Assembly (NCBI GenBank): GCA_009869945.1
Contig: WIXG01000055.1
Span: 231,485-295,484 of the forward strand
From: Mesaphorura yosii
Taxonomy: Eukaryota > Arthropoda > Collembola > Poduromorpha > Tullbergiidae
Direction of reading: 5' to 3'
DNA: 64,000 nucleotides
Within the stretch, counting starts at the first letter, position 1. Each line of letters starts with the position of its first letter. The position numbers and the translations under genes were made by a program. The notes beneath the pieces are model-generated. The model worked only from the letters and a program-made list of their open reading frames with translations. It did not search any database and was not told the DNA's origin. Below are positions 3,387-63,731 of this stretch, in pieces.

Positions 3387-6300
3387 GCATTTGCTACAGT
3401 TTTGAAGTTGTAGATGATATCAGCAGCGAGTAGCATTTAAAATGTATTCCTTTTTTTGACTTCTGCTTACAAATTACACCTAATTTAGCAAGTGGCAAGG
3501 CAAAACAGGAAGGATAATTAGGAATTAGCATTTACAAAGAAAATGGTCTGAGCATTTGCACGCACGAAGGTCTGTTAAAGTGGAAATATAATTAGTATTG
3601 CTATTGCCATTGCTTCTAGAACAGAGCCGGCACGGAGCTTTGTTATCTTCGAATTTACTCTTTACCTTCACATTAAGCCTGGTGATGTTAAGAGCGAATC
3701 GAACTCCTACGCGCATAGCCCAAGATTTCTTGGAAATATGGAAATCTATCCTGAAATGAAAAATAAACCAGTATCTTCCCATCAGGCTCAGGTTGTATTT
3801 GGGATTCCCCAAATCCCGGTTGCATTGACTATTGTAATCGAATATCGAAACCATTGTAATATTGCAAAGGCGTATGTCGGCGCATGGGCTCGGACCTACC
3901 TGCTACCAATTTGACAACTTGCCTTTCGGCTTTCCTCCATTTCGTTTTCGATTCCGATGATTTAGACTTTGTCCTTAAAGAGAGCGTCTCCATGACAGTG
4001 ATAATACTAAACTGTCGACGGATTGCTCTCTTGCAGGCTTCAAAGTTAGCTGGCTTCGAATTTTGTCCTGGCTCCCAATTTGTGGCAAGGAAACACTCAG
4101 AAAACCTATCTCGAAACTGCGCTTTAGTAAATTGTACTAAATTAAGAAAGACGGTGCCCAAAAAACCGAGTGAAAAAGCAAAACAATGGAAATACGAAGG
4201 TTGAAGGAAATAAATGAAATGGCAGAGACAGAGACGTGTCAAACGTCGAAGCTTATCAGTCAAGACGCGCAGATACAATGAAACATTGTTTCGAGCTGCT
4301 AAGTAGTTTAGTACCCGACGCAGGGTTTCTGCATCTATTTTGCATTAATAATGCCCGTGTTACACCTCCCCAGCCTTTCTTACCAAGCAAGCCAAGCACA
4401 AATGCCGAGTCTGCACTGCAGAACAGCAGAGCTAACTGGTAGTGTTTAGTTTGAAATTAGTGGACGGATTCAGGAAAAGGTGTAATAACGTATTAGTACT
4501 TATTTGCCAACAACTAACCCTACAAACTACGCGTATGTGTGCATGACGCGACTGAGAGAAAAGCGACTGTACAAAAATGATCCTGGCTAATACATTAAGC
4601 TGACTGAAAAATGTAGATGAGAGACTTTTATGTAGATTGGAAACAAAAACGAAAAGTAAAAGGTGTGACTTGTGAGACGATGAGTGAATTAATGCTCGCT
4701 GTGACCCGAGTACGAGTTTATATACCAGGTAAAACCATCACGTGCCTGAGCATACTTAATGACCAAAAATATTATATTCTTCCTCTCATTTACCGTCCTC
4801 TGCACTGAACAATTAGCTGCTCCTGTCTGACACGACTTGGAAACTTTGGAGCATTCCGTCATTTCGGTTTAGTTGCTGCTTGGCCTTTGTTTTTGCTTGT
4901 GCGAGGTTCAAGTATAAATAATTCTGGATAATGCGATGCTATTAGTCTATGTAATAGGAAAGAAATGACTTGTTGATGGTTCGCGAGAGAGCAACAAGTC
5001 AACACCCAAATGATGCACTGTACTTTCCATCGTCCTCAATATCAAATTCCACATCCACACGAACAATTTGAATGATTCACGCTGCCAGCATAGCATGAGC
5101 AATAGGTACAAGATCGAACTCATGGTGTGTGGTTAATTGGATTCAAAATATTTACATTGGCTTTGCAGTTTGCATTTGCAGGACGCAAAACTTGGAAGCA
5201 CGGATGAGCACTGAACAGGGCTTATTAAATTCTTATCTATTCTCAGACGTGAGGAGTCAGCGTGATGCACTTGAGTCATCGCGAATCTTCCGATATTCTC
5301 CCGACTTGAACTCGTCTTCGAAATTTGGGCGCAGTTCTTTGTTTTCATGTTTTGAAATTGGATCCCTAAATTGTTATTGCTATTGTTGACGGCTGGCCAT
5401 AGTGTGCTGCGAGAGAAGGGAAGAATCAATTAGCGCACTCAAAAGTAGAACGCATTTCGTATTAATTATCATTTTGCTGTCTGTGCCCTTGTTCGTAACT
5501 GAGTAAGTCAGTAATTAACTTGAGGAAAACAAATTGCGCCGTGCCTTGCTTGAGAAGACCGTGGCTCAAGGCTCGAGGTAGAATTGTCTTCCTTCCGAAA
5601 TGACGAGGAGTTGACATGATTCTGAGTCATTCTTAGAACCGGCGTGGTCTCATGATGGTCCCGTCGTCTGTCGTGGCTTACAGACTAGGCTAAGTTCCTC
5701 TGTTCACTGGCTCTACGGTACATGGATTAATGCGTATTTAATGTGCTGGAAATTACCGTTCACTAGTTTCAATGGGTTTGATGCCTGCGAAAGTTTCGTC
5801 TGTGCTGTCTGTCCAGAATTCACCCTTTTGTCCAAAAATAAGAACAAAATGGAGCGAAAAATAGAAACGATTCACTTTACAGCTGGACGCTGGATTCAAA
5901 CTGAAATCGGTTACATTTACGTCTGTTCTTTTGTCTGCTCCTTCAGACAGCCATTAAGCCCAATTACCATCGACCACAAATTAGGCGCGGCGATTCCAAC
6001 GTGAACTTTCCTAATTTAAATGGAGATGAGTGTAATAATTAGAGGTCTCTAATTGCTACTTTCTGTTTCTAGCCAGCAGCCAAGCAACCTTCTGCATTTC
6101 GTGAGAATTGCCAATCGTGACTTTGAAGAGACTGCAATTCGAGAACGCTGCCGACTCGATTCTTTTGTGCTTGACTGCTCGAAGCTGAAATCGAAATATT
6201 TCTGGGCTCATTTCCATTGCGAAACGTGTTAATTGAATTCGTAAATACCTCCGCACCAAGTCTCCTTTTTATGGCCAAGCAAGCGTCGGTCGACTGCACG

Positions 6301-18992: not shown

Positions 18993-19397
18993 ATGAAGTA
19001 CAAAGACAAAGATCTGACATGCCTCTGGGTGTTGATAAGTGTCGGGTGCTTACTGGTGCCGGAAGTGGCTGGATTCGCTGTCCAGCACAATTGCCACACA
19101 ATGTTCCGCGTTTACCCCTCCGAGGAAGGCCACATCAAGTACTTGACCGATTTGAGAAATTCGAATGAAGGGGTAACCTGAATCAACAATACAACAGTAT
19201 TAAGCATATTAGCACAATTAAGCTTGTCCCAAGTCTGAGAATTTCGTACCTGGTTAATTGCAGCTGATCTTTTGGAGCGCAATTGCCAATATCGGGCAGC
19301 CAACCGACATCCTCGTCCCGCCGGAGTTGCTGGGCTTGATGCAGACATTGAATGACAAGGGAATCAAGGGAGAGCCCTACTACCGGAATGTCGAGAT
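18993..19397 (+). other. Signal peptide and M14 carboxypeptidase propeptide-like domain (exons 1-2)
   Basis: After the signal peptide these two exons encode one copy of the carboxypeptidase A/B activation domain. The marks are FRVYPSEEGHIKYLTDLR, FWSAIANIGQPTDILVPPEL and a closing YYRNVE. In zymogens this domain covers the active site of an M14 peptidase. Here no zinc-peptidase domain follows. The next exon, reached through a 417-bp intron in matching phase, leads into a low-complexity linker and beta-trefoil units. The domain call is strong. Its membership of the same transcript rests on phase agreement and on the need for a signal peptide. Confidence 0.7.
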
Positions 19398-22300
19398 GTA
19401 AGTCCAATTTCGCAGACCTGGGCGTGGGCGTCCTCCTCGTCGGCGCCCGTCCAGGTTGGACACGAGTCTATAAGAACGTTCAGAGGTTCCACGTGCTACG
19501 TGCTGGTTAAGATTTGTGGCTCGGCCGGCAGTTTTGAAAATTAACATTAAAGTATTTTAATGACCACCTGAATTCACCCTCTCCTTGACCCTCAACTACA
19601 AAAGTTATATAATAGGCAGATGGCAGACTGTGTGAGTTCTTAATAAAAGTGATAGAATTTATGGCACCAAGTACGGACAGCCTATCACCTTTGCGTACGA
19701 AATGCGAAGCTGGTCTGCCATGAAATAAGCCAGAAAAAATACAAGTAAAGAAGTTGCACAAATGGCATTGCTTTTGCTTCGATGTTGTTAATTGAATTAA
19801 TTGTGTTTTTGCAGCTCGTTCTCCCAGGAAGTCTCGCCCACATCGACATGCCCGGCCAAGACACAAATTTTGAACTGGGGTGTGCAGACGACTGGATTCT
19901 CGCAGTTTTCGTTTACCATCCCGGGCACTCCTGGCGCCATCATACCCAAACCGAAATTTTCGATGCCCCGACCACAACGTTCATTCGTACAACCACACCT
20001 GTCTTTTGCGAGCGCCCCGAGCTTTTCGTCATTTTCATCCTTTTCATTCTCGTCTCCGAGCTTCTCCGCGGGACCTCCGATGGCTTTGGCCGTGCAGGGC
20101 GCCCCCGCCCCTGCGTCGGCCGTCTCGACCACGCAGCTGATCACGACCGGAGTCTACTTCACACTTGCGTTCCAGAGCCAGACCAGCAGCATCGTTACGC
20201 CTTCTGACGAGTCGAGCGGGTCGCAGAGCACGTACCTTATCCTCACACCAGCTACGGCGGAGCACAATCAGGGTGGCAGTCTCTTCAACTCGACACTTTG
20301 GCGGTTTCAGGCGAGTCAGTCGAATCCGGGATTCTTCACACTCACAAACAAAGCGCAGCCCAACTCTGTGGTTTCGTTTGTGAGCGACTTTATGGGCTTC
20401 AAGTCGTTGCAAATCACATCGGATCCGGCCTACGCGGTGGGTGGGCCGAAATACCAGGACACGCTGTGGAAACTCGTCGAGTCTGAGCGGCCAGGCTTCT
20501 ACAGACTTCGGCTGCAGGCAGTCCCGAAGGGAATGCTCACGTTCAAGAAGGGTTGGAGCCAGACTGCGTATCATCTGGTCGTGGAGGAATACAACACTGC
20601 TAGCTACCAGCCCGGTGCGATCTGGGCCAACAGTGCACTGATGGAGCTCAAGGTGATTGAGTTCTTTGACGGGCCGGGTCCATTCCTCCAACTCATTCCG
20701 CCTCCACAAACGATCGTGTACGAGTCAAATCTCCGCACGGGCTACTACTACACAGTCACCCTGAAAAGTTACCTCGGGAGCCTCCTCACCGTGCAGAATA
20801 ATACAAATGCGTTTGGTGGTCAGTCTGTGGAGCTCATCACGAAGAACCTCGACGCATACGGTCAAGGAACGCCGCTGTACACCTCGACTCAATGGAAACT
20901 CACGCTTGCTCCGACCGACGGTTACTTTGTACTGGAGAACAGAGCCTTCCCACATGCGCTGACAACATTCGCAAGAAGGGGCGAAAGCGGAGCCGACGGT
21001 GTCATCGTGCAAATGGACGACAAGTCAAAAATCACGACAGCCACGGATCCATTCCCTGAACCAGTGCTCTGGAAAATTGAGGGCACACAGCAACCAGGGC
21101 AGTTTCGACTCCGACCCAAGTCTCTGCCCACGCGCGTGTTCGCCGCTTTCAATGTCGAACCAACACAAAATGGGTACTTGACACAAGTCGTCGAAGATAG
21201 CGCGGTGCTAAATTTCTTCGACACGATCGTCAGTTTCCAGCTGATTGAAAAGGCTGATGTGCCAGACCAGGAAGTGCCAGATGACGCGAAGGAGCAATTG
21301 GAACTTACTTTCGACGAAGTCAGCTCCGGAGTGTATTACACGATAACTCTACGAGGACAGCCAAATTCGATTCTGACGTACTCGCCGGACGTCGCGACGT
21401 ACAGCGATGGTAAATTGGTACAGCTTCTGCTGAAGAACCAGGCTGATTATCAGTCTGGAGGCCCCAATTTTGGCGACTCACTGTGGAAACTCACGCCTTC
21501 TGAGGAGCAGGGCTATTTTCTGCTGCAGAACAAAGCATTTGAAAATGCGTACACAACTTACGTCGATACTCCATCGGGAGACAAAATTCTGCTCATTTCG
21601 ACAACAGACGCTAAGAACGCCGGCGATTACGCCGCTGGAGGAAGTCAACGCGACCATGTGCTGTGGAGCATTTTGAAGACGGAAGCGCAAGGCTTCTTCA
21701 GGCTCCACAACAAAGCATCACCGTCGGGCTACGTGACGTGGAAGGATGATCCCGTGGGAGCGAATGGAGTGATGATGTACATTGACGAAAACAAGGACCA
21801 TGCTCAATTCTACAAGTTTGGTGGCAAATGGTTTACGCAGGCAGTATTTCAACTTACTGCTATCGAGCTGATTCAGGGCATGCAGACGGCGGAGATCATT
21901 GACGACGGGGACATCGGAGGAGACGACGATCTGTACGTTGGCTACTATTACCAAGTCTCGATGAAGGGAAAGGCAGGCGCTGTTCTGTCGTACAGCGAAA
22001 AGAAGACTTCGCAAGGTAAGTTGATGGCGCTTGTCACTTACACTTGTCCGCCAACTTGCTGGATCCTAAATTTTTGAACTCTGAAGTTAAATTCGTTTGA
22101 TTACAATAGGCAACCCGTTCGTGCAGTTGTGGACGACGAACCTTCAGTTATTCACCGCAGGCCAGCAGTATTACGCCGACGGGCTCTGGGAGCTGGTGCC
22201 TAGCGAAGTGGACGGCTACTTCACCATCGTCAACCGCAGATTCCCAGGAAGTGTGATCACATTCACGGACCTCTATCCCGGCTCGAAGTATTTGCAAATC

Positions 22301-25300
22301 GTAACGAAGCCCGGGAAACTGAACTGGGCCACAGGCGGACCGGACAGAGACCACGCTCTGGTGAAGCTTGTGAAGTCCACTCGACCAGGCTACTACGTCC
22401 TTCAGCTCAAGTCGCTCGGAGAGGCTGCTGCGATCATCTGGAAAGAGGAAACCGAGACTGGGTTCTATATTCAAGTCGACTCTACGCCCGAAAACATTCC
22501 GTTTTATCAGCCAGGTAAACTTTTATGAGTCTTGGAATGCCGTTTCATGTTCAACATCACATGCCTAATATGCGAGGCGTTATAAAAAATTTAGGTTTAC
22601 ATCGAACATTTTATGTCGTTTAGGTGGCAAGTGGTACGCCAACACACTATTTAAGTTCACACGCGTGGAAAAAGTTTCTCCGCCAGACCCGACCCCACAG
22701 CCCACAACGCCACCACCGCCCCCGACACCTCTCCCGCCGCCCCCACAACGAGCACCGCTCCAGCGTGCCGTGCCAGGAAGTGCAACAACCCCGGGCGAGG
22801 TCACGGTCACAACCACGACCGTCGAAATCCCTCAGCAAGCCTGGACTTTCACATGGTGGACTGCGACTGGAACTCTTTCGTACGAATACCGAGCTGATTT
22901 GTACTACACAATAAGCGTTGCCAGCAAACCGGGCTCCATCGTGGCTGCGACTGCGCAAAAGACACCCACCGGAAATTATGTCCACCTTGCAACCAAAAAC
23001 CTGAACCATTACTTGCCTGGAGAAAGCAGGTTTGTGTATGGCAACTGGAAACTCGTGCCGGTGGAGAACGGATATTACGAACTCATCAACAAGGCATTTC
23101 CACACGGACTGCTGACGTACACGACCGAGTACTCGGGCTTGCGGTACCTCCAAGTCGTGTCTAAGAAGACTGAACTGGCTCCGTACAAACTGGGCGGTCC
23201 ACGACGGGACGACGCACTCTGGACGCTGGTGCCAGTGAAAGACGTGCCGAATGGATTCAAAATTACACTCAAGTCGACACCAAACGGGTACGTCACGTGG
23301 AAAGATGAGGCGACGGCAATTGGATTCTATATGCAAATTGATACGGTGAGTGATTTTTGATTTTCTCGCATTTAAGATGATTGAATCATAAAATTGTGTC
23401 TCCTGTTTGTAGAATCAAGAGAACGCTGTGAATTACAAGATAGGTGGCAGTCAGTACATGGATACAGTCTTCATCATTCTGCCTTCCGGTGGTCAGCCCC
23501 TGCCACCTCCACCACAACCCACCTCGGGACCGACTGAACAGCCTCCCATGCCAGACGGAGGACTCGTGTCTGGCGCCTATTACAGAATTGGCCTGAAGAG
23601 TAAACCAGGTACAACTCGAATACAAATATGCTGTCAACAATAAATAAAACTATTAGCTTTAAGAAGTAATACGAGAGTCCGTTATCCATCTGCCTATTTC
23701 AGGATCCGTATTGACGCACACTTACGATTTGACAAGTTTTGGAGGACGATTGGTGCAGCTAATCACAACCGACACTGATGACTACTTACAAGGTGGAAAA
23801 AATTACTACGACTCATTCTGGAAGATTACGAAGACTGAAGTCGAAGGTTACTACACCTTGGAGAACCGAGGCTATCCGCGGGGCATGTTGACAGCTTTCT
23901 CCAAATACGGACTGCTGTGGAAATTCTTGAAACTCAGCTCCAACCCAGCAAAACTTCCAAACTACCAGGCAGGGAAGTCAGAGCGGGAGAAAGTCCTGTT
24001 CAAGATCACACAGTCCGAAGTGCCCGGTTACTTTAGGATTCAGTGGAAGCTCAGTGAGGGTTCCCTGACTTGGTTCTCGACTGCCAAGACCGAGTCTGGC
24101 TACTTTTTCGGAATTGATGACAGCTCAGAGAAGAAGGAATGGTACTCGCTGGGCGGGAGATGGCAAGACGATACGCTCTTCTCATTTACCTTCCTGGAGC
24201 AGGGAACCGAGCAGCCTGACGCCCCGGCCCAGCCCAAAATCACGGGGCTCATGACCAACATTTATTACACTCTCACTCTCAAAAGCAAGGAGAACAGCCT
24301 GCTCTCGTTCACGCAAGAAGGCTCGACATCGTATGCGCAGCTGGTCACCTCGAAGAACGTGCAGGATTACAAGGCGAAGGACGCCACGTTGTACGCAAGC
24401 ACTTTGTGGAAGCTTGTGCCCACAGACCTCGAAGGATACTATTTGCTTCAGAACAAGGGGGCGGGCACGGACAGCTACATGACGACGGCCACAAAGTCCG
24501 GTGTATCTGACAAATACTTGCAAATTCTCAAGACCGACCCGAAGGCGCAAACGGAGAACTTGCTTTGGCACGTTGAACTCACAGAGGAACGAGATTTCTA
24601 CCGCCTGAAACTTAAGTCGTTGCCGAATGGAGTTGTGACATGGACGAATGACAGAACTGACCATGGCCTCTACATGCGAGTGGACGAGGACCCAGAGACA
24701 ATCGGACAGTACGAAGACGACGAGATTTGGTTCGATGACGCTTTGTACAAATTCTCACCCGCCACGGTCGAATTCCAAGACCTGACGTTGGAGCGCAAGC
24801 CAGTTGTTGTACCGCTGACGGACGACGAAGCGAATGAGAGCAGGTTTGAGGTCGTGACGCAGGTGCCGTCGACGACTCTCTTCACGGGAATCATGTACCA
24901 CATGCGACTGAAGGGCGAGGCCAAGAGCGTCATCACGTACGAAGAGGGCAATGACGCCGGCGGTGGCGGAGTCTTCATGCAGTGCGTCGTTAAAGAGCGA
25001 GATCAGTTCTTGACCGGTGGCGATAAGCATTTGCATGTGAGTATAGTTTTCGCACTACTATTGATCAGGATTCAAGTTACAGTGCATTTGAATTTAGTGC
25101 TCGCTAATTTTCTAGGCCCTTTGGAAATTCTCTCCCAGCGAAGTTCCCGGCTATTTCACAATCGAGAACATTGGCCAATTTGGAGGACTGATAACGTACT
25201 ATCAACGCAGCTTCATCAGCAAGAAGTACTTGCAGCTTGTGATTGATGTGGGCAGCAGAAAGAAATACCTCGTTGGAGGCTCAGATCGAAGCAAGGCGCT

Positions 25301-28036
25301 GTTCAAATTTGTGGCCAGCGAAATTCCAAATTATTTCATCATTGTGCCAAAAGATCTGCCATCGGGCTACGTGACAGTTGCGCCCGACGCATCTCCGCTC
25401 GGCTTCCACATGCAAATTGTGCCCGGTTCAGCACTTTACAACGTCGGAGGAAAACTGCGTGACAAAATCCTTTTCAGATTGCTACCCGCCGACGACCAGA
25501 CTGCGCTCAAAGCAACAGTCAATTACTTCAACTACGATTACCCGTCGTCCGAGGTTTGGGATTCCAGGAAGCAGATTGTGCAGCTGAGCAATACCACACT
25601 GACAAACACTTACAGCGAAGAGTCGCTGCTGTCCCTCAAATTCTCGCAAGAACGGCCGGTCATCAACCGCTTCGAGTACAAGTTTGTGGAGAGCTTTCCC
25701 TTCTTGAGCCAAGTGAAGATCATTGGTGGAATTACGGCGGCGGCGAATCCAACCGCGACGCTGCTGCTCCACTCGTCAGTTGTCGGAGGGGAAGGCCTTC
25801 ATCTCGCAAACTCCTTCACGTACACCAACACGATCGACATTCGCGTGGCCGGTCACTCTGAGGTAGACGTGGACAGCTTCTATTATTGGATTGACGACCT
25901 GGAGCTGCCTTTCACATCCCTCGTCGAAATACGCACAGAGTCAAATCGACCGACCAAAACCGGTTCAATCGCGAAAGGATTAATTCCTGGAGAAATAATT
26001 CTTGAGATGTTTGCACTGAAGGACAAACCCGGCGTTGAGGTGATTGGAGTGCAAAACAAGGCACTGTTCATCAAAATCACCGGAAACATGGTCACCTCGT
26101 ACTCGACACCCATCATCATCAAAATGCTTGGCCAGAAGAAGATTACGCCTGCACCGCCTCTGCCACCACCACGGCCATCGCCTGTGTCTAGTCTCAATGT
26201 GATACCTACCGTGGATACATCACACGACAACGACCCAAGCACACCGGAGGAAGTGTCGGGCACTCTGCTGAAGGAGGAGGATTACGACCCGATTGTTCCA
26301 ATCCCAGGCACAAACCTCTTCACGGGGCTGTTCTATTTCATCAGTGTCAAAAGTAAGTTCCATATTTAGCCAGAGTATAGCTTATTGAGCGAGCCTCATG
26401 CCTGGTGTAAATTGCCTGGGCCGTTGACCTCCATTTGTGTCACGACCTGCGCAATTTTTAGCAAGATAATATTCTGTATCTGCCCCTTCTCAGGTCAACC
26501 TGGGCCCGTGGTCACGTTCTCGGAGACACCGACCGACAATGGTGGAAATTTTGTAGAGCTGGCGTACACACAGGAATTGCGCAATACGAACGTTTTCGAA
26601 GCCGAAAAGACGAACCGACGCTACTACGTCAGTGGGCAGTACAGATTCTCTGTCTCAGAGGAAGACGAATTCTATACGCTGAGGGTAAATCCAAATCATC
26701 CTACGCTTATGCAATGTGACGTGTCAATTTGCTTTCTATTCTCCGCTTTAGAACCGAGACTCCATCGGATGGGTCGCTCAGTCTGCCGTGCACAGCACAG
26801 ACGGTAAAATGATCCATATCAGCCGCAAGTACTCGGAGACACAAACGTACTCTCCAAACGGAAAATACCGCATCGCAGCGCTATGGAAGCTTCGACCGTC
26901 AACTGTCCAATTCTACTATCAATTTGAGCTGAAGAAGTATCCCAACGGATACATTACTCTGGACTACGCGAAGGAGTCCACTTCGGGTATTCCACTGCAG
27001 ATCGACAACACCGTGCCTCATCGGGTTGACTATTCTCCAAATGGGCTAAAGTATGATGAATCACTTTTCAAATTCGAACCGTCGAACGCAAGAATCCATG
27101 GCACAGTAACTTCATTCACATACGATGTGCCGGACGACGACGTCATAAAAACCAAGATTAGAAAAGTGGCTCTGCTGTCCAACATCACATTGGCCAATCC
27201 AACCAAAAGCCTTCTCAACTTCCGGCTTCACGTCGATGGTGCGGAAGGAGTGAGCAATCGTCTCGTGTACAAATTTGAGCAAGACTTATCGTTCTTGTTC
27301 GATTATCATCTTCGGGCTGAGCTCGCAATTCCAAACAATCCACCAATCAAGAAGAGTTTCACCGGCGGGTTCAAGGCGGGGCAGGAAATTATCATTGAGA
27401 ACGACGTGGACTGGTCATTCACAAGCAATTTGCCGGATATTGAAGTTGAGCCGCAGAAGACTGTACTGGTCGACTACTACTATCAGCGCATCGATGGTAA
27501 GTTGAGATAAGGGCCGTTTTCATTGTGCCACAGCTACATTTGTCATTTCATTTTTGCATTTAAAAACAGAACTCCTGGTTCCATTCACCGCACTCGTGGA
27601 GCTCCAAGCCACTGCCGTGCGGGCCACAAAGGACGGTCGCATTGTGCTTGACGCCCCGATTGGAACACCAAATTACATCCTGCAATACTTGAAGGATCGG
27701 AATTTGGACAACTTGGTCAGTCACACGGATGGGAACACGGTTTTCCTCAAAATCACAGGATCCGCCCTCGCCTCGTACGTGCTTCCAGCTTCAGACTTCC
27801 AAATTGACGGCGAAGTGACGCCGTGCCCCGACCTCATTCCTGTGACACCGGCCACACTTCGGGTCACGACAACTACGCCGAAGCCCACAACCACGACCAC
27901 CACTCCGACAACGACGACCACGCCAACGACGACGACGACTACGACCACCACGACTACTACAACTACCACCACGACTCCGAGACCGACGACCAGAAAATCA
28001 AGATTCTTCATGAAGTGGACGGAGATCGAAGAGTAA
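18993..28036 (+). CDS. Giant secreted beta-trefoil lectin / double aerolysin-like pore-forming protein
   Basis: Eleven exons agree in phase throughout: 18993-19172, 19264-19397, 19815-22015, 22110-22514, 22624-23345, 23413-23608, 23703-25036, 25116-26352, 26494-26684, 26752-27496 and 27570-28036. They encode about 2,603 residues. In order the protein has a signal peptide (1-27), a carboxypeptidase-A-type propeptide domain (about 30-104), a Ser/Phe/Pro-rich linker, and nine beta-trefoil units starting near residues 217, 412, 608, 813, 1064, 1267, 1463, 1673 and 2127. Aerolysin/ETX-MTX2-type modules lie at about 1856-2063 and 2317-2524, and a Thr-rich tail at 2539-2603. Each trefoil unit has three lobes with the signature G-[YF]-[YF]-x-L-x-N-[KR] and D-x-LWKL. 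No stop or frameshift interrupts it. Lectin plus aerolysin pairing is known (for example in a Laetiporus lectin and plant amaranthin fusions), but this architecture is not one I recognise. It is presumably exported and may bind glycans and form membrane pores; that function is inferred. Confidence 0.8.
20149..25490 (+). repeat. Array of eight tandem beta-trefoil lectin-like units
   Basis: Units of about 170-250 residues begin near 20149, 20736, 21324, 21937, 22893, 23569, 24253 and 24883; a ninth, after the first pore module, starts at 26323. Each opens with a [VYM]-Y-[YF]-x-[IVM]-x-[LMV]-[KR] strand and has three lobes ending in LWK-like motifs. These are typical of the beta-trefoil fold seen in ricin B and amaranthin-type agglutinins, though the canonical QxW is mostly replaced by x-L-W. 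Pro-rich linkers occur between units 4 and 5 and between units 5 and 6. Units 1-3 and the start of unit 4 share a single 2.2-kb exon. Confidence 0.75.
25510..26130 (+). other. Aerolysin-type pore-forming module 1
   Basis: About 207 residues contained in one exon. The segment shows long alternating polar/hydrophobic beta-strands, Ser/Thr-rich stretches (SFTYTNTIDIRVAG) suited to the membrane-inserting hairpin, and the turn WIDDLELPFTSLVEI. That turn corresponds to the conserved proline-containing strand of the ETX/MTX2-aerolysin family. No catalytic residues are expected. A Pro-rich linker separates it from the ninth trefoil unit. The family assignment is by pattern, not by a profile search. 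Confidence 0.65.
27100..27795 (+). other. Aerolysin-type pore-forming module 2
   Basis: About 207 residues over two exons with an intron at 27497-27569, just before the ELLVPFTALVEL strand. It keeps the same order of features as module 1: an entry strand VTSFTYDVP, KVALLSNITL (compare IVQLSNTTL in module 1), LVYKFEQDLSFL (compare FEYKFVESFPFL), and the PFTxLVE strand. Identity between the two modules is clearly low outside these landmarks, which suggests an old duplication. Confidence 0.62.
27846..27985 (+). repeat. ACN-codon repeat encoding a threonine-rich tail
   Basis: Almost every codon is ACN with occasional CCN, giving runs of Thr broken by Pro near the C-terminus of the large protein. 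Such Thr/Pro tracts are usually heavily O-glycosylated and extended (mucin-like). The repeat is likely to vary in length between individuals. Confidence 0.8.
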
Positions 28037-28125: not shown

Positions 28126-28131
28126 AATAAA
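28126..28131 (+). terminator. Polyadenylation signal of the large lectin-pore gene
   Basis: AATAAA lies 90 bases after the stop codon, consistent with the 3' end of the transcript. Confidence 0.55.
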
Positions 28132-29328: not shown

Positions 29329-32300
29329 ATGCGACTCTTCTCAAGCCAGGTGTCCAATCCTCGCTTGATTTTTACGTTATTGTGCTTCTGTTTAACCGGA
29401 CCCATTGTCCAGGTCCACTCATGCGGCTACAAGGTACGTTTGCCACAATTCCAACTAACACTTTATGTGAGCTCAAGTTCTTTGCCTTATGTGTACAACT
29501 AAATTCACACATTCATAGAGTTGTCCCAAACCGAAACCCGGATTTCTGAATGTTCATTTGGTCCCCCACACACACGACGATGTCGGGTGGCTCAAAACAG
29601 TTGATCAATACTATTATGGAGCCAAGAATTTTGTACAGCAAGCATCCGTCAAGTATTTGCTCGACTCCACCATCGACGAACTGCAAAAGGATCCGACCAG
29701 ACGCTTTATCTACGTGGAGACTGGATTCTTCTGGCGTTGGTGGTCAAATCAGACGCCAGAAAGACAGGACGTTGTTCGACAAATGATTGCATCCGGGCAG
29801 CTCGAATTTATTAATGGCGGTTGGTGCATGAACGATGAAGCCACGGCGCATTATAACGAAATTATAGATCAGATGAGTCTGGGGTTAAGGTGAGCTTCAG
29901 CTATCGAGCTTCGAGTGGGCGGTAAATTGTTGAAGGTTTTTCTCACAGATACTTAAATGATACGTTCGGAGAGTGCGCTCTTCCACGAGTTGCCTGGCAA
30001 ATAGACCCATTTGGACATTCCAGGGAACAGGCGTCCTTGTTTGCACAGATGGGATTCGATGGACTGTTCTTTGGGAGGCTCGATTATCAAGATAAGTTTC
30101 ACAGGAAAATGACACAAAATATGGAGACCATTTGGAACGGAAGTCCGCACAATTTAGGTTAACAATCATACTGAAAAGGAAAAAATTCGAGAGAGATCAT
30201 AGGAACTTCTGTTTCGCACTTATTTGGTGCAGGGAAGGAAGCATCTTTGTTCACGGGCGTCCTCTACAATGGTTACAATCCTCCAGACGGCTTTTGTTTT
30301 GACATATTCTGCGGTGACGATCCAATCATGGACGACCCAAGACTGCTGGGTTACAATCTAGAGGACAAGATCCACGACTTCATTAACGCATCGAAAATCT
30401 GGAGCGCTCCCTACAGAACCGAGAATGTAATGATGACGATGGGCTCTGATTTCCAGTATCTGTCGGCCAGGGCATGGTACGACAACCTGGACAAACTCAT
30501 ACGGTGAGTTTCTGCTGCTATGCTGGCAGCTCCAACAGGCGACGATCGTACTGACGATTTTGTATGCGCAGCAATGTGAATGCACGCCAAACAAGTGTCC
30601 ATTCGCATGTGAACGTGTTCTACTCTACTCCATCTTGCTACTTACAAGCAGTTCACGACGCGGGGCTGACCTGGTCAACCAAATCGGATGATTTCTTCCC
30701 GTACGCAAGCGACCCGAATGCATTCTGGACAGGGTACTTCACGTCCAGACCAGCCTTGAAATATTACGTCCATAAAACAAACATCTTCCTTCAAGCATGC
30801 AAGCAACTGGCGGCAATCACTGATGGATCGGAGGAAACACTGGAAAGAGTGTTTAAGCTGGCGGAGCCTGTTGCAGTGGCTCAGCACCACGACGCTGTGG
30901 CAGGCACCGCTAAGCAGCATGTGACTGACGATTACTCGCTGAGACTCAGCATTGGCATTGACTCGTGTGAGCGAGTGATCAGTTCGGCGATCATGTGAGC
31001 TATTCGACTCAATCCTAGTGATTAGTTGGGATTCTTGGCTGAAGTTCGTTTATCATTCTCACAGGAGTTTTCAGTACAAAACACACAAGAATTTGGACGA
31101 CAATATTACACTTGATCTAGAAAACTTTCAAAATTCGATTGACTTCAATCCTGGCGACGTGAGCTTTTGTCACAACCTGAACATCAGCAGCTGTTACGCG
31201 TCTGAATCGATGAACGACTTTGTTTTATCCGTCTACAATCCACTGGCAAGATACTTGAACAATACAAATGTGAGAGTTCCCGTCACAACTCCGCACTGGA
31301 AGGTGGTGGTGATTGGTGAAGAAGCAGGTACAATTACAGCTGGAGATAGATTCGTGTCTTCTACTCTGTATCTTTTTCTTTTCAGATGAAATTCCAGTCC
31401 AAGTCGTTGACATCCCCGAGCCCGTACTCAAGAATCCAGGAAGAGAAAGTAGCACGGCATACTTTGAAATTGTATTCCCAATTCCAAGGTTGACACCCTT
31501 GGCCGTGACACAATTTCACCTGATACGACAGAGAACCAACACCAGAGAACCATCACCAAAATCGAGAACCGAAGAGCTCTCGGTTGACGCACACCAGCTC
31601 ACTCAAGGCAGCGACATTCAGATTCAAAATTCCAAGGTTAGAAGTCATCATCCAATAGTTACGACTTACGGCTTTGCAGAAATGTAAATTACAACACATA
31701 ATTTCAAAATAGGGCGTGAGTTTTGTATTAGATGCCTCGAGTGGTCTCATCAAAAGCGTTGGACAATTCAATAAGAATCTGGGCAAAATTGTTTCGGTTG
31801 CCTTGAATCAAAACTTTTACTTCTACAGAGGGATGGTTGGGAATAACGAAGAGTTTCAAAATCGATCTTCTGGAGCATACATTTTTCGACCCAATGGAAC
31901 TGAACCAGTTCCCATTGCAAGCCAGGCGAGCTTCAGGATTTTGAAGGGTATTACCGCATGTTTTCGCAGATGCCCGCATTTTGCAATTTCGGATGATCGC
32001 CTAGTTTGAAAATACATTTTCCGTTTTGCAGGTGAGTTTGTGACAGAAGTTCACCAAACGTTCTCGAGTTGGATTAGCCAAGTCATTCGATTGTATGACA
32101 ATTCTGATGCAATTGAGTTTGAATGGCTGATTGGGCCAATTCCAATCAAGTAAGAGTCAAGGTCAAGTTAAATATTAGGTCGGGTTATCAACTGCAGTTG
32201 TCGGTTTCTTTTCAAGGGATGACGTGGGCAAGGAAATCATTACTCGATATTCATCCGACATAAGGTCGAATTCTGTCTTTTACACGGATGCAAACGGAAG

Positions 32301-35928: not shown

Positions 35929-37781
35929 TCATTGAATTTCCTCGTACTCGTCCGACCCATTTTCGATGTCTTTCATGGCTTGCCATCCGTCGTCACTGTC
36001 AGCCTCCTGTCCGTAGTTGCCTCCATCACCGTTGGGATTTTGACCTTGCATGATTTGAGATTGCAGAACTCGGCGTTGCTGTTGGTAGGCGTACTGGGCC
36101 ATGATGGCGCTCTTCACGTTCCGGGCTTGTGATGACAGGCCAAGCCTCTTCATGTACGCGCACAAGGTGGTTCGAGGAATTCCGTGATGGGCAGCGGCCT
36201 GGCGCACGGTGACTCCTTTCATTGCCAGCTCGGTGGCCATCTGCAGTCGCCTGGCGCGATGGTCCGCTTCTGGCCCAGTCATGCCTGTTCCAGTTGATCT
36301 TGTGCGCATCGGCAGAGCATTTTTATCAGAATAAGAAGTTAGACCTGTTCAATGGAATTGGACCTAAATTAAAGTGGACCGGATAATCAAAAGTTTTATC
36401 TCAATCATGTACGTTTACCTTTACCCGACAGGGAGTTCGGAGGATGACCTTCTTTCTTCCACTTGGCAAGCGCCTTTCTAGAAATACCGTATACTTCGGA
36501 ACACTGTCGAATGCTCATTCCTCTCCGAATTGCGTCAAAAGCCATCTCTTGAAGTTCAGGTGACCAAGTCGATTGACCTCGTTTTCGTGTCGTCTGGATT
36601 AATCGCCCCGTCTCGATTGGTGCCACTTCATCTTCTTCTGCTTCTCCATCTTCCTTCTCGCACGGTGACTCCTCATCGTCAAGTGCTTCGTCATCTTTTT
36701 CATCTCCAAGCTCGCTCGCATTGTCCATTTTCATTTGTCTATCATCGTAACTGTCCTCGCCCTCATATTGCTGTAGTCCCTCGTCATCCTCCACCTCATC
36801 ATTTCCAGTGAGTCGTGAGTGTCCGCTGTTCAGATCTGCGAAGCGGAACCCGATGTTTTGCAATTCTTGAAAATCATTACCCCACAAAGGCGACGATGAC
36901 GGTGACAGTGACTCCAACTCATCATTGTCCTTGTCGTCTTCACTGTCGTTGTCCACCATCTGGCCCACTTGACCAGTGAACTGAGCAGAGTTCGGTTCAT
37001 TGATGAATTCAGGCTCCTGTTGGCAAGTTTTCGACCTAATCCTGACACCCACATTATTTACATCATCCGAATGAGAATACTGAATTCGGGCCAGTTTCGG
37101 CATGTTGTAGAATACATTACGACGGTTCATTCCGGGTTGTGCTCCGTGCAATGACTGTTCCTGCATAACTGGCCCGGCTTTGACAATACTTGATTGCAAA
37201 TTCGGTGCATTCATCACTTTGACATTGAGTGCCTCAGCAGCCTTCAAAAAATCACGCAGCTGAGACTCCTCCACGCTCACTTGCCCCGTATACAAAAACT
37301 TAACCAAAGCCTTGACTTCCCAGGCTTTCATGCCCTTCAAATAGATGATCAAGTTGTTGTCTAGATTGTCGTTATCGGTGAATAGATCTTCAAAGTATGG
37401 CGAGCACGCGGCGAGAAGCATGCGATGACATTTGATACGTTCGCCCTCACAGATCAGGGTGACATCGGAGAACTGGTGCGAGGTGAGCAACTTGCGGAAT
37501 ATGTCTTGCAAAGCTACTGCGTGGCTACTCCATTTTAATTTGAAACTTCTGGTTGCAGATCCTGGAGTTTCCCATTCTGCATCGACTGCATCCATGTCTC
37601 CTCCAAGCTGCCAGGAAGGTGCCGGGTCTGATGAATTCAGGTTGATCATGCCGACTGGAAAAGACGCTCGAGATCGGATCGAAGCTGTGCTGGTTACTGG
37701 TATCTTAATTTTAGTGATAGTACCTGAGCTTGCCTTCTTGCCGGAGTTTTGTCTCGTTGGCTCAAGTGTAGACTGTTCCAT
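35929..37781 (-). CDS. BTB domain transcriptional regulator with two pipsqueak-type HTH motifs
   Basis: Two exons on the minus strand, 37781-36419 and 36344-35929, join in phase 1 into 592 residues. A BTB/POZ domain lies at about residues 80-195 (FSDVTLICEGERIKCHRMLL, ACSPYFEDLF), with the charge pattern of insect tramtrack/bric-a-brac proteins and a KLKW start. A long acidic, Ser-rich linker follows. Then come two psq-like helix-turn-helix segments: one around GMSIRQCSEVYGISRKALAKW, at the end of exon 1, and one around GVTVRQAAAHHGIPRTTLCAYM in exon 2. BTB-psq proteins dimerise through the BTB domain and bind GA-rich or related DNA to regulate development and chromatin. It resembles bric-a-brac/pipsqueak relatives, but I cannot name the orthologue. 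The gene converges on POLR3C. Confidence 0.88.
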
Positions 37782-38828
37782 ATCCTTTATCTTGTCCTTT
37801 CTCCCATTCAGAGATGTGAGGTTCGGTACAGTGATGACTCGAACTTTGACTTGGAACCGAGGGTCTTGCTGTTGCTGGAATTACTTTTGGTTATGTGATC
37901 ACTCGATTAACTGACCCTGGTGGAATTAGGTGTAAGTACTAGAACTGGAGTATGAGAATTTGTTGCATCAGACCTCAGAATTAATTCGCTCAAAGTGGCT
38001 CCTTCGTCAACTTTGACTACATGGTTTGATGTGTCGGGCTGGCTATTTCGAATTGGACGCGACGACAGGATACTGTGTACGAGGTGACACGTTGCACTTT
38101 GCCGACAGAATGACGAGCATACACGCTGTGCTTAAATGTCAGATAGGCGATCGGAAGGGTAGGTGGCGAGACGACACGGTGACGACGTCCCGTGTGACTC
38201 ATGGACTCATGTCAGTAGCAAGCACCACTTGCCTGAGCATCGCTTTGTCTTGTCAAGCGTCCACTAAAAATATTGCATGCCATGCTCCATGCAATGCATG
38301 GTCTGTCATCGTCACAGGTCAATGATAATTAATTCTTAAGTCCCGTCTCGTCCAAATATCAAGTTCGCGAAGCAGATTTTCATCCTCTTAGGCGTAATTA
38401 AGTGAATTAAGGCGTAATTAATAAATTCCGTCAAGTTTATTGATCGCTTCCACATTCCACTTTGAATGCCTTGAATAATTGTGAACTGATTGACTACTTG
38501 CTCTGTGTTTTTATAATGTGAGGTCTTGTTAATTGTATTTATTAGAATCTATTGCTCAATTTTTTGATTCATGACTAATTGGATGCCAGATGCATTAGCG
38601 CTGTCTATATCGGTCATAATAACACTAAAGAATTTTGCTTTGACAGCATTATTAATTTCTTGTGGACGTCTTAACTTTTCAACTGCAATATCAGTCAGTG
38701 TGTCATTTCACTTTTGGCAGATCGAAGCGCTACAGCTGACAGTTTAAATTAAAAGAAAGTGTAATTCGAAGTTAGAATCTTTCATCTTTTACAGAATCTT
38801 CATACGCACGCGCGTGGAAATCTGCAAA
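37782..38828. other. Divergent upstream region between the BTB gene and a secreted protein gene
   Basis: About 1 kb shared by two divergently transcribed genes. A 99-codon frame at 38026 has no family resemblance. No TATA box was identified for either gene. Confidence 0.45.
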
Positions 38829-41535: not shown

Positions 41536-44500
41536 TCATTCTTGCAACTGCTGCTGATTTGTGAGGAGGTGACTGCAAAGAACGTTGACGACGTACTCAA
41601 CAACAACGGTGCGAGTAGACAAAACGACTTCTGAAATCAATGCAAAGTGACTGTTCGTCATTCGCAAAACTGTATGCATAATTCTAAGAAGACTACTACA
41701 AACCTCGTGGATGCGGAATGCTGCCTTGACGGATAGATCGCTTGAAAACCGAACATTTAGCCACTGAGTTCTTATCAACGGTGTACAGCGTTTGCCACTT
41801 GGGGACATCCAGAAGCCGGTCTGCCAAACACCTTTGCATGAGGTCTTTCCGAGTGATTCTTGTGCAGTAAATTCGGTCTAAAGTGGACAAAGAAATGCTC
41901 AAGAGGCTGATAAGATACAGGCAAATCATTGCAGAATATCACCGTTTTCAACCCATTCAATTGTGATCGTGTTGAGTACATTTGGAGAAAACCTCAGCAC
42001 GAAACCGTTGGGCACTTCATTTCTGCGAGAGTAAAGCAAATTCTGCGTGTTTTCTGCCGTCACCAAACCCATGACGAAACTAGACGTACAAAATTATAGA
42101 GTTTTCAATAACTTTTGGGTGTTTGCGTTTGGTAGAGTACCCCTGATCCCAAATGCCGCTCTGTGGTCGACCGGGTCGCTTCGTTCCTCTCAAGTGTTCA
42201 GTGATGAGCTTCATTACCCCGAAAAGCCATTCCCACAGCGTGAAACTCTTGCTGCCATTCTCGATCGGCTCCATGCAAAACTGCTCGAGAGTGATGGGAG
42301 TCATCGAGCAGACTTGAATTAGTCTCGAAAGATGAGTTCTAGGCACATGAACAAATCAAACAGGTGCACGTGCGTCAATGGAGAGCAATCCTACGCCTGG
42401 CCTAGGTCAATGTTTTCCTCGGTACACAGTCAACAAGTGTAAAGGACTTACGGAAGCAATATTTGAACAATAAAGTCAACATTTTCATTTGTCAGCCCCC
42501 GTCCGGTCTGTCGTAGGAAGCAAACATTGAGTGCCTTGCTGACGTTCTCCCAAGAAGCAGCTAGCTTCCGGCCTTCTGACTCCCCAGGAGCAAGAGTACC
42601 CGTCGCCAGGTCCCAAATTGAGGTCTCCCAAGACTTTTGCTCTTGAGATCCATTTGTAATGACTTTGACGGGATATGAGAAGGCGCCGATCTAAACGTAA
42701 TCGCACTCTTATCAGTTTGATTGGACAGTTTCGGATCGGGATCACTTACATTGAACTTGATTCCGTTAACTTCAAATTGTCCCGAATAGTAGATGAAATA
42801 ATTGACATCCAAAACACTCCGGCTCATTTCACGAACTTCCTTCTCAATGACTCGCTTGAACGTCTTTTTAATTTTGGGATTTCTTCACAAAACCATTAAG
42901 CATGAATAAAAGGTAACGTTATCTCTCTTTATGGTACTCTAGTGCCTAATGCCTGGGCAAAATGTCAACTTACTTAAAGCAGGCGCAGTATTGCTGATCA
43001 TCGGTCAATTCCACAGTGACCACGTCCCCCTCGATCAGATTCTCCTGCGGGATGAATGTTTCTCTCTCCTCTCTAAGCGCTGCTTGATCCGAGTGCATAT
43101 TTCCAAAGCCTGTGTGTAATGCTGCAGCTTGTCGGTCTGTGAGTAGTGAAATTTTGATCCTGGGCAAGCGGAGATCCTGAACACCCACAAAAATCTGAAT
43201 GGTCGTGCAAAATTTCGTGTCCGCCTTCAGCACTTGGTAAGGCTGGATTCGAACGATGCTCGTGTGAAAAATCAACTTCTGCAGCATTTCTTCCACCTGG
43301 AATTTCACGAATTGTGAATTTTCTCCATTTGCAAAGTTCTTATTCAGCGATTTACCTCCGCTTTGAACATTTCAAACAGCGCAGTGTTGACGAGCTCTGG
43401 TGAATAAGAGGAAGACATGACCGACATTTTGAGGGTGATGACTTTTCGGACAACGTCGTGAATTGCCCACATGAATCTGGCCAGTTTGTTGACGAGTTGC
43501 CCCACGTGGTCCAGCGAAACAGAAACGTGTTCCGACTTTCCTTCGTAATTTAATTTCATTTCGAATTTCCATTGTGTCACTACTCGCAGAATTTTCTGAA
43601 GCAATGTTGTCAGTTCGTGAATACATATTTGAGCGTGTGTGTACAATTCCTGGTCGACGGTTCCCAATTCAAGGCGCTGTAGCAGAATATAATGTTACAC
43701 TTTAATATCCGAAATTGTTTGCCGATTTGAGCATGCATAGCTTAGATCTATGTTATGCATCCACGCGTTCACTCTTCCTGCTATTTTAAGTACAGACCAT
43801 CAAAACGCGGGTTCATTATTTTCTGTCATTTGGCTTGGCGTATGATGATTAATCATAAAAATAATGGCGAAGATATTGAAAAGGACGGCTGACTTACCAT
43901 GCGCTGAAGTTCATCCTCCTCTAATTGTAAGTGCAGCGGATCTGAATCAATGAATTAATAGTGCCACGCAGTAGTAATGATTTTTGATTTTGGCTTTCGG
44001 TGGTAAGCAAAGAGGCTAGACTAATCATTGGTCGCATACGGAATATGGCGATCCAGTAAGGACGACTCAGAATTTAGGAAATTTTGAAAGCTGTAATTTG
44101 TTCTTATTTACCATGTTTATCCTTTTCGAAGATAAACTGATCAAAACGTAAATAAGTCCTAATACTAAATCAGGGTGAAGTTGATCTGCGCTTACCTTTT
44201 CCGAAGTTCTGCAAAGCTGCAATCAAATCAGTCTGGCCTGTCTGAAGTCTTTCAAACGAGCGCGCAAGTTCTCCTAAATGGTTGATCTGAAAAGTCTCTA
44301 GTGTACGTTCTAACTCAACTACATCAGGCAAATTCGCTAGGGATTTTGGTGGCGAAAGTGATAGCTGCCCGCCGAGGAGCTGGCCCTCCACCTCTAGACA
44401 TTTTTTAATGTGCAAGAACAGAATGATACTGTCTGGGCAGCCAATCTGCGAGGAGATTTGATTAGCTCATGAAATTACGAGTTCCGGGCCAAATTCTGGA

Positions 44501-46943: not shown

Positions 46944-49900
46944 TCACAAGTGGTCGGACTCAATTTCTCCATTGCCCGCCGTCCCAAGCATTTGGTCATT
47001 GTCTTGCCAGTCGAGGTCCAGATCTGTGAGTTCTGTGTCCACGTACTGCTCCAGAAAGTTCTCCAAATCCGTGCGCAGATCGTCGTTGGCGGCCGGGGAT
47101 TGGTCGATGGGGTACCCAAGCATCTTGAACTGGGTTATAATTTCATCGTTGTCAGAACTGTCGTCTTCACGATTTCCGAAACTACTGCAAGAGCGAAATC
47201 AGCTAATCAGCAAAATAGTCGGACAGTGGGAGTAATGAAAATTCGTACTGTGATGAGGACGGGGAGCAGCCTGTGTAGCTGTCCGGCCTGCTTTCGTTGC
47301 TCATCGGATACGACGGTGTTGCAGGTGGAGTGGGCTGCGTAATCGACGATCTTGGGCTTGGGGACAAGCGATGCTCCCGTTTTGGCTCAACTGTGCTTGC
47401 GCCCGGAAGGCTGCATAAGTAGCATAATATTTAACTCATCTGTTAAACTAGCACACTATGAACCATTTGCACTTTGCGGGGCTTACTTCACAACAGTTTG
47501 CAGGAAAGTCTTCACGTATTGTCGATGCAGAGCAGTCGACTGCGTCTTGGCGTCTGTAATTTTAAAGTGCGGTTTGACATATGCAAATGCAGTACAGCTC
47601 GGATTATTAATGGCCAATGGTTTAACGAACCCTTCCTCTGCAGGTAAGGAGTAAACACGTCAGCCTTTGGCTTGTTGGGGTACAGATGCGTGAGGACCGG
47701 AAGGTCCAAAATGCGCTCTGCCAAAGGATGCTTTGCCAGTTCTTCGGCAGTTGCCGGTGCAATCGCAAACGTTGAGTAGCTCAAACCATCTGGAAATCAA
47801 GGTGTATCAGCATCGAAACGCTTCACCCAACGCCGCGCCATAATTTCCTTACTGTGTTGCAGTCCCACAATGCTGATCCCACCCAGCGAGCCATCAGAGA
47901 AACGAAGCAGGAATGACCCAACCTTCCCCTCGAACATCAGTCTGCGTTCAGCCTCGCCTCGGGACATGAAGCCAGCAATGTACCTGAAATTCATTCGTTC
48001 TTCTTTCAGGACTACGCCCTCGGTTTGGCTCTCGGCTGGCCACGAGGAGCAAGCACACATACCCATCCTGCCACGGTCCGTTCTTTCCCTCGGAGCCACA
48101 CAAGTACTTCGCAGTCAACTTCATGATTTCGTAAAACCACCGCCAGAAGGTGAACCTGTGCTCAGTGCTGAACTCAGTTTTACAAAACTGGTCCAATGTC
48201 AGGTGGTCTTGTGGAGCGTATCCGTTTTTCCTTGGAACACTGCGGCATAAGAGTCACGATGTTATTGCTCAGTCAAAGGAATTTTCCACGCCAGGCAAGG
48301 CACGCGCACAGGTGTTCATGTTGTGCATAATAATTCCACGAGATTCACCTGAATGCCTTTTCTCTCAGCACTTCCAGCTGGTCTGGTGTCAGATGTACTT
48401 TGGTCATCTCCACACATTTGCTATCCAACGCTCTGGCCCAGTTTGACCAGGGCAGACTCATTGGACGCTGCGTGTCGGAGAACAGCATTTCCGAATCCAT
48501 CGCATTCAGCCAGATGATGGTTTCGAAGGCGTGGGCGCGTTGGTCAGCGTGAGTATGAACTTTTATAGGGTTGGAGACCGCCCAAACCCATCTCTAAACA
48601 TTGCAGGATGAACAACCGATATCAGTTTTAGTTTATCATGTAAATGAATGAATCCTAATCCTGGCTAATCTAGCTCGAGTGCTCTGCCAAGTGATGACTC
48701 GTGACTCACCTGGTTCGGCATGCCATTGAATGTTTCTGTGATCGTCATATGGAAAAGAATCCAATATTCCAAGTCCAACACTGATTTTCCAGGCTCACGG
48801 TCGCGCTTGAATATATTTTCAATCTTTGAAGTTCTGCAACGAGCGTAAACAATCCAGTGTGAGCCACCGTCATTCAATTAGGATAAATTATTTTCTTCTG
48901 CTTACTGAAATGTGACGGAGAAGGACGCGTCGTCTGTCTGCAGGCTCTCAACATTGTTGGCAATTTCGCCACCAATCTCAATCACACACTTTTGTCCACT
49001 TTCGTTTGTGAGTTCCAGTGTTTCGCTGCATGGCGACTTTGCGCTCTTGGCTCGGACTGCAGGCTTCGTGGTTTTGGTTGACTTGCCCGGCTTTCCGGGG
49101 TTCTCACCAGCAGCGCCGTCGTTCACCTTGCATGCAAGCGTCGTTGACTCAGCATCGAAGCGCACGAGTTTCCGCACTTCCGCTTTTGTCAGGAATGACG
49201 CCCTGACACTCCCAAAACTCATGTACTTTGTCATGTTGCGAGACCCGGCCAAGAATCTCAGTTTCGCATTGAACTTTGTACCCTTTTTGATGACTTGGCA
49301 TGGCTGGGTCTCAATAATCAAAGAAAATCGCTCCAATTTCCGGCCAAACTCTGAAAACTGATATCGTATTGCACCATTTTAGAAAACATTTCGGAGATGT
49401 GACTTGAAACATGCTGGAGTTGCAAAAATACCTGTTTCTGCAGTGTAGACAACTCAGCCATATTTGGGTACCGTGCCTGCAGTTCAGCGAGCTGCAGGCG
49501 ACAACGAAGCAGTACCAAGTCAGCCAATTCAGAGCAGTAACCATGAAGCACATCAATCAAGTTGCTGGTCAAAGTTGTAGTTTCGTATCTGCGGCTGACG
49601 AGCTCCTTGAGAATGCTGTCATTCAGAACGCAAGAAGCACGAACCAGAATGCGACGGATTTTGTCGATGAAACCACGGACGAAGCAGTTGAGTTGGTCAT
49701 ACTAGCGAACAAGCAATAGAAATGTCACTACATTTCGAAATCTTACATTTGTTATCATGTTATTTTTTATGATGTACTAATTACTTTGTCCTTGTATTTG
49801 TTCTCAACGTCTTCCAGCTGTCTTCTTGCATCTTCGGCTGTTGTCTGTCCATTTCCGGTGGGACTGCCTGCAATCTCTGGAATTAACGCGAAACTTTGAG

Positions 49901-61771: not shown

Positions 61772-63731
<1,960 letters not shown>

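Follow-up and report, generated by a model that had tools for sequence, protein, structure and literature searches.

Which kind of gene joins the leader of a peptidase to a long array of lectin folds and to modules of the pore-forming type, and is it one gene at all? The question is raised by a locus of the collembolan Mesaphorura yosii, for which an original prediction, made from the letters alone, had proposed a giant secreted protein with a propeptide head, nine beta-trefoils, two pore-forming modules and a mucin-like tail. We analysed the locus within a window of 64,000 nucleotides (bases 231485-295484 of contig C55, reaching the contig end) and searched the genome as a whole (93.0 Mb in 1,127 contigs); positions below are those of the window. 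Judged from its sequence, this chimera gene of eleven exons is intact and encodes one open chain, and we have high confidence that the chain comprises a leader, nine trefoils (T1-T9), two aerolysin-like modules (A1 and A2) and a Thr-rich tail, as laid out in Table 1. On balance, we give an even chance to the fuller reading that this is an intact gene, found at one locus, for a giant secreted, glycan-anchored and membrane-damaging chimeric lectin with a captured leader.

The eleven exons agreed in phase as predicted; when spliced, they yielded a chain of 2,603 residues from the ATG at 18993 to a sole, terminal stop codon (TAA, 28034-28036), and all ten introns, 67-417 bp in length, were GT-AG. 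An AATAAA signal occurs at 28126, 90 bases 3' of the stop codon, and the further ones within the gene span (19642, 23639 and 23643 only) are each intronic. Exons 3, 7 and 8 have uninterrupted reading frames of 733, 444 and 412 codons, which exceed chance expectation by far. The guanine-plus-cytosine (GC) content was 0.50-0.54 in the four 2-kb windows of 20001-28000, as compared to 0.39-0.51 in the rest of the window, and 0.31-0.45 in the introns of the gene. When domain boundaries were set against exon ends, introns 3-10 were each found to interrupt a trefoil or a module and, since each cuts within a domain, exons 3-11 belong to one gene. The original prediction had allowed for exons 1-2, 3-7 and 8-11 being separate genes; a division between 3-7 and 8-11 was ruled out because intron 7 cuts trefoil T8, and a separate origin of exons 1-2 is unlikely. 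Introns 1 and 2 fall within the stretch matched by the propeptide profile, the second of them at the very last residues of that stretch. The joint of exons 2 and 3 is the sole one for which the evidence consists of phase and gene structure.

The proposed peptidase propeptide at the head was borne out by Propep_M14, which matched the leader at 40.9 bits against a Pfam curated cut-off of 22.1 (E = 2.2e-10). Elsewhere in the genome we listed at least 13 other Propep_M14 matches, a list from which the propeptide of the chimera gene itself, split by introns, and a third copy on contig C106 are missing, and at least 68 matches to the catalytic domain, Peptidase_M14. All 13 listed propeptides adjoin a Peptidase_M14 match; in contrast, no such domain follows the propeptide of the chimera, as none of the 68 listed matches lies on C55. 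The place and phase of intron 2 recurred in 10 of the 13, with GT directly after a D/N-V-x-like motif plus two bases (the donor of L019 is weak, and L024, L027 and L029 have no GT at the site). The place of intron 1 was read straight through in 10 of the 13. However, L026 and L028, both on C106, are interrupted exactly there and in phase 0, as in the chimera gene; the third C106 copy has an exon-1 end that is similar by eye, and L027 is interrupted nearby in a seemingly different phase. L026 and L028 were also nearest to chimera exon 2 (E = 7.8e-9 and 1.0e-8; next, 5.1e-6) among the 9 of 13 that it matched. The M14 carboxypeptidases of the same genome, as exemplified by the C106 tandem, are therefore like the chimera in signal peptide and propeptide exons and in both intron places and phases, but carry the peptidase domain that the chimera lacks after its leader. 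Because both propeptide introns are shared in place and phase with these genes, capture of the leader exons by exon shuffling is suggested; a carboxypeptidase gene is very likely to have been the source, and a C106-type gene most likely the donor. The tandem M14 carboxypeptidase genes at L030 (C106:83501-93500) belong to the lineage from which the leader exons probably derive. The common intron places would make this a clean, checkable case of exon shuffling.

The nine trefoil units are 18-35% identical to one another in pairwise comparison. Of their 27 lobes, 24 were recovered by the profile of another lobe class at E <= 0.05 (one of them just 24 residues long), the first and third lobes of T2 and the second of T7 being missed, and the same profiles found no match in 20 shuffled chains. 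A trefoil profile made from 11 window pieces and searched against all PDB chains returned 11 rows up to E = 10, headed by SeviL (6lf1), with E = 2.2e-5 over the full sequence and 0.0092 for its best stretch alone. Second was a 16 kDa salivary protein (0.0046), which we take to be a trefoil, followed by four BEL trefoil chains at 0.23-1.2; five further rows were not trefoils by name. No trefoil family in Pfam exceeded its cut-off. RicinB_lectin_2 scored 15.2 bits on exon 5 against a cut-off of 25.6 and matched 2 of the 11 pieces, the best at E = 0.0074 and, by inference, under the cut-off; an NCBIfam search of the pieces gave nothing useful. Among the profiles that the original prediction had proposed as checks, Propep_M14 thus came out over its cut-off and ricin B lectin under it. 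Nevertheless, the SeviL match and the cross-recognition of lobes uphold the nine trefoils by sequence, and with them the hallmark of R-type lectins, a beta-trefoil with threefold internal repeat. Elsewhere in the genome, 25 RicinB_lectin_2 (PF14200) matches exceeded the cut-off (on C471, C913, C875, C597 and others), none of them on the chimera contig. The mucin-like character of the tail likewise held: it is 52% Thr, with Thr at 32 of the 41 residues in 2550-2590, and two mucin or glue models in Pfam matched it at 0.1 and 0.17, both under cut-off.

Six-frame genome searches with exons 8, 3 and 10 found this locus only (8, 6 and 3 rows, respectively, all on C55). When the trefoil profile was searched against 5.8 billion proteins, a single one of 935 candidates matched (E = 1.6e-14). 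This protein from another assembly, P0001, corresponds to exon 10, with 73% identity over 229 residues, and diverges shortly past the residues at the end of chimera exon 10, as if its frame ran into an intron at the same place. Since the genome searched holds no second copy at that level of identity (six-frame search with exon 10), we infer that P0001 is an orthologue from another species. Against the PDB, P0001 gave YerB at 0.11 and four intermedilysin rows at 0.57-1.1, none significant; intermedilysin belongs to another class of pore-former. With exon 8 or the chain as query, searches of protein databases gave no match at E <= 0.001 among length-limited candidates, the chain being sampled by at most 100 words from 2,481 residues.

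BLASTP aligned A1 with A2 at 31% identity (E = 7e-22), and 63 of 210 aligned positions were identical; by this measure, the two C-terminal modules are duplicates of each other. Neither was recognised by Pfam, and the ETX_MTX2 profile had no match in the genome, in a search whose control matched nowhere either. Against the PDB, a profile of A1 and A2 matched nothing up to E = 10 apart from a natterin-like protein (0.34), and exon 8 alone returned one row, a lipocalin at 0.41. In the reverse direction, we scored 856 sequences (A1, A2, their reversals, the nine trefoils, P0001 and 842 background open reading frames) with a profile of three aligned, solved aerolysin cores: 5zu4, titled a natterin-like protein in the PDB, 4zno, and 1w3a, the Laetiporus sulphureus hemolytic lectin (LSL). 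We take 5zu4 to be LIP and 4zno to be Dln1, whose lectin domain is presumably not a trefoil in either case, and assume that LSL has one trefoil. The background consisted of 517 frames of >= 45 residues from five stretches of the same genome and 325 of >= 60 residues from the window outside the gene. A1 headed the ranking (17.5 bits, E = 2e-7), followed by A2 (7.0), and both exceeded the best background frame (4.4); none of 500 shuffles reached A1 and none of 500 reached A2 (best, 9.6 and 5.2). The aerolysin core runs beta1, beta2, insertion hairpin, beta3, beta4 (PMC3110756). The PFT/PYT Pro of the (L/V)PFT signature lies 53 residues in A1 and 59 in A2 from the presumed tip Pro of the putative hairpin, near the 57 of 5zu4. 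An aerolysin fold in both modules is likely; the A1 match is clear, and that of A2, weak alone, is likely sound given its support as a duplicate of A1. The aerolysin-like character of the two modules claimed as pore-forming is thus probable, more clearly so for A1 than for its duplicate A2, and is the least firm part of the architecture. The C-terminus would accordingly comprise two cassettes, T8-A1 and T9-A2.

Known lectins of this type are small. Chimera-type mytilectins join a single trefoil to a single aerolysin-like domain (about 150 + 140 residues), mostly without a signal peptide, and have been reported among Ecdysozoa from krill only (PMC10744619); SaroL-1 likewise has one of each (PMC9468336). 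In both, from animals or their sister group, a trefoil precedes a C-terminal aerolysin-like domain, an order that T8-A1 and T9-A2 repeat, but the single trefoil and single C-terminal pore domain contrast with nine and two, plus a carboxypeptidase-type leader, in the chimera. The original prediction had placed such lectins in fungi and plants and overlooked these animal and choanoflagellate ones (PMC10744619, PMC9468336). No mytilectin was among the 11 PDB rows of the trefoil profile. The best of them, the mussel R-type lectin SeviL, has QxW in one subdomain only and is a single trefoil of 129 residues, unrelated in sequence to MytiLec (PMC7744527), in contrast to the nine of the chimera. Membership of the mytilectins by way of SeviL was rejected, as SeviL is not itself a mytilectin (PMC7744527). 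Lectin domains also precede the aerolysin core in LSL and in the plant amaranthin-aerolysin lectins (PMC5554364, PMC12355970); the plant proteins combine a pair of amaranthin domains with a single aerolysin domain (PMC12355970). Aerolysin-like proteins of arthropods are described from ticks (PMC9779611) and caterpillar venom (PMC11187147).

Taken together, glycan-anchored membrane attack is our first choice of function. Exon shuffling would have given the lectin array a secretion signal and pro-domain, and the secreted protein would bind glycans multivalently through its trefoils, anchoring it on a glycosylated surface, be it that of a microbe, mucus, cuticle or the lining of the gut. Once anchored, the protein could form membrane-damaging oligomers through side-by-side packing of its paired C-terminal cassettes, in the manner of SaroL-1; cleavage of the Pro/Thr linkers by a protease may be needed first. 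A more specific version, in which one chain supplies two protomers to a glycan-anchored pore, the propeptide is a built-in inhibitor or maturation switch, and an already grown array gained its leader by exon shuffling, appears unlikely. Pore formation and sugar binding are both extrapolated from sequence. Several observations weigh against the proposal. The lobe cores are devoid of QxW, which occurs twice in 2,603 residues, once in T4 and once in a linker; because these classic sites are missing, sugar binding can be put only conditionally, and we regard glycan binding by some trefoils as reasonably probable. The putative hairpin of A1 is not among that module's most alternating segments (in A2, the ascending arm is), and real membrane insertion has, in our judgment, somewhat less than an even chance. 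The joint of exons 2 and 3 depends on phase, which would agree by luck 1 time in 3, and on the want of a signal peptide in exon 3. In the three-core test, which is partly circular because 5zu4 was chosen as A1's best PDB row, P0001, which ends before the PFT signature, ranked 58th of 856. Without LIP, A1 was still first (13.0) but A2 fourth (3.8), below two background frames (6.3 and 4.4); a profile of LIP and Dln1 kept A1 in front (11.2) and left A2 in third place, after one background frame (4.7). LSL alone, although its core is part of the profile that matches A1, did not match A1, placing it 11th, A2 77th and trefoil T2 first. Finally, when P0001 was added to the module alignment, the natterin match was lost, leaving only TqaM at 1.3 and 1.4.

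The alternative that survives best is a structural or adhesive extracellular protein of mucus, cuticle, egg or gut lining, in which the trefoils bind matrix glycans and the modules, having lost the capacity for membrane insertion, act simply as rigid spacers or in oligomerisation. This is a tentative but serious possibility: the single locus and the 73% identity of exon 10 with P0001 suggest constrained evolution and do not look like a venom gene, Pro/Thr linkers and a Thr-rich tail are in keeping with it, and alternation is weak in the putative A1 hairpin. However, the spacing from hairpin to signature is close to that of 5zu4 in both modules, and two cassettes have been retained. A matrix or adhesive role is ranked close behind membrane attack on account of the one locus found, the conservation of exon 10 and an A1 hairpin whose competence for insertion is putative. 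It is improbable, by comparison, that the modules have another all-beta fold, as might be argued from the want of a Pfam family, the fragile LIP match, the fall of A2 from the top without LIP, the failure of LSL alone and an hhalign probability of just 65 (across 39 columns around the PFT signature); on the three-core profile, A1 and A2 rank first and second of 856, above all background frames, reversals and trefoils, and A1 is also first on the profile of Dln1 and LSL. Least probable is a gene boundary after exon 2, with exons 1-2 forming the 5' part, intact or decaying, of a separate carboxypeptidase gene and exon 3 beginning a trefoil chain that has no signal peptide, like most mytilectins (PMC10744619). 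Although intron 2 is the longest (417 bp) and in-frame Met codons occur at 155 and 194, the contig has none of the 68 listed Peptidase_M14 matches, and exons 1-2 read open, show good splice sites and are in phase with exon 3. The favoured membrane-attack reading and these alternatives are partly compatible, and the confidence placed in each is not a share of one whole.

Table 1. Position and basis of the features of the chimera gene (window coordinates; residue numbers in brackets).
Feature	Position	Strand	Basis
Whole gene, eleven coding exons, 2,603 aa	18993..28036	+	all GT-AG, phases agree, one stop
Exons 1-6	18993-19172, 19264-19397, 19815-22015, 22110-22514, 22624-23345, 23413-23608	+	
Exons 7-11	23703-25036, 25116-26352, 26494-26684, 26752-27496, 27570-28036	+	
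Signal peptide (1-27)	18993..19073	+	sequence; cleavage site judged by eye
M14 carboxypeptidase propeptide domain (38-106), split by introns 1 and 2	19104..19818	+	Propep_M14, E 2.2e-10; intron places common to carboxypeptidase genes
Ser/Pro/Phe-rich linker (107-215)	19819..20145	+	composition
Beta-trefoil T1 (216-401)	20146..20703	+	unit alignment, PDB profile search, lobe profiles
Beta-trefoil T2 (413-598)	20737..21294	+	unit alignment, PDB profile search, lobe profiles; first and third lobes unmatched by other lobe classes
Beta-trefoil T3 (609-794)	21325..21882	+	unit alignment, PDB profile search, lobe profiles
Beta-trefoil T4 (813-990), cut by introns 3 and 4	21937..22673	+	unit alignment, lobe profiles
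Pro/Thr-rich linker (991-1063)	22674..22892	+	composition of 996-1063
Beta-trefoil T5 (1064-1240), cut by intron 5	22893..23490	+	unit alignment, lobe profiles
Beta-trefoil T6 (1267-1445), cut by intron 6	23569..24199	+	unit alignment, lobe profiles
Beta-trefoil T7 (1464-1635)	24254..24769	+	unit alignment, lobe profiles; second lobe unmatched by other lobe classes
Beta-trefoil T8 (1674-1848), cut by intron 7	24884..25487	+	unit alignment, lobe profiles
Aerolysin-like module A1 (1850-2062)	25491..26129	+	three-core profile, 17.5 bits, rank 1/856
A1 putative insertion hairpin	25695-25799	+	placed by spacing only
Pro-rich linker (2063-2126)	26130..26321	+	composition of 2065-2126
Beta-trefoil T9 (2127-2311), cut by introns 8 and 9	26322..27084	+	unit alignment, lobe profiles
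Aerolysin-like module A2 (2312-2528), cut by intron 10	27085..27808	+	A1 duplicate; three-core profile, 7.0 bits, rank 2/856; exon 10 73% identical to P0001
A2 putative insertion hairpin	27289-27399	+	
Thr-rich mucin-like tail (2531-2603)	27815..28033	+	composition

Several other genes are discernible in the window. Exons of a glycosyl hydrolase family 38 protein (alpha-mannosidase) lie downstream of the chimera gene at 29519-30998 (+), and a microRNA precursor of the mir-46/mir-47/mir-281 family at 3965-4046 (-; 61 bits). One reading frame with a BTB domain and a Psq helix-turn-helix occupies 36405-37880 (-), beside a second, Psq-like frame at 35932-36348 (-); both the microRNA family and the BTB-Psq frame are in keeping with a protostome. 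Three frames resemble the STAT DNA-binding domain, at 42973-43371, 48905-49378 and 55375-55863 (all -; E = 8.9e-5, 9.6e-6 and 0.046, under the Pfam cut-off), and are perhaps a tandem STAT-like family. A homeodomain exon, presumably Gbx-like, is found at 62118-62603 (-; E = 4.6e-24).

The architecture of nine trefoils and two modules seems to be new: it was not found among the open-access papers listed, judged from titles and the starts of abstracts. The lectin-aerolysin chimeras of the works cited above are small and pair a single pore domain with no more than two lectin domains. If the present reading is true, it would show how such proteins may grow in an animal, by cassette duplication and exon shuffling, and it raises the question of whether aerolysin folds may be kept for work other than cell killing.

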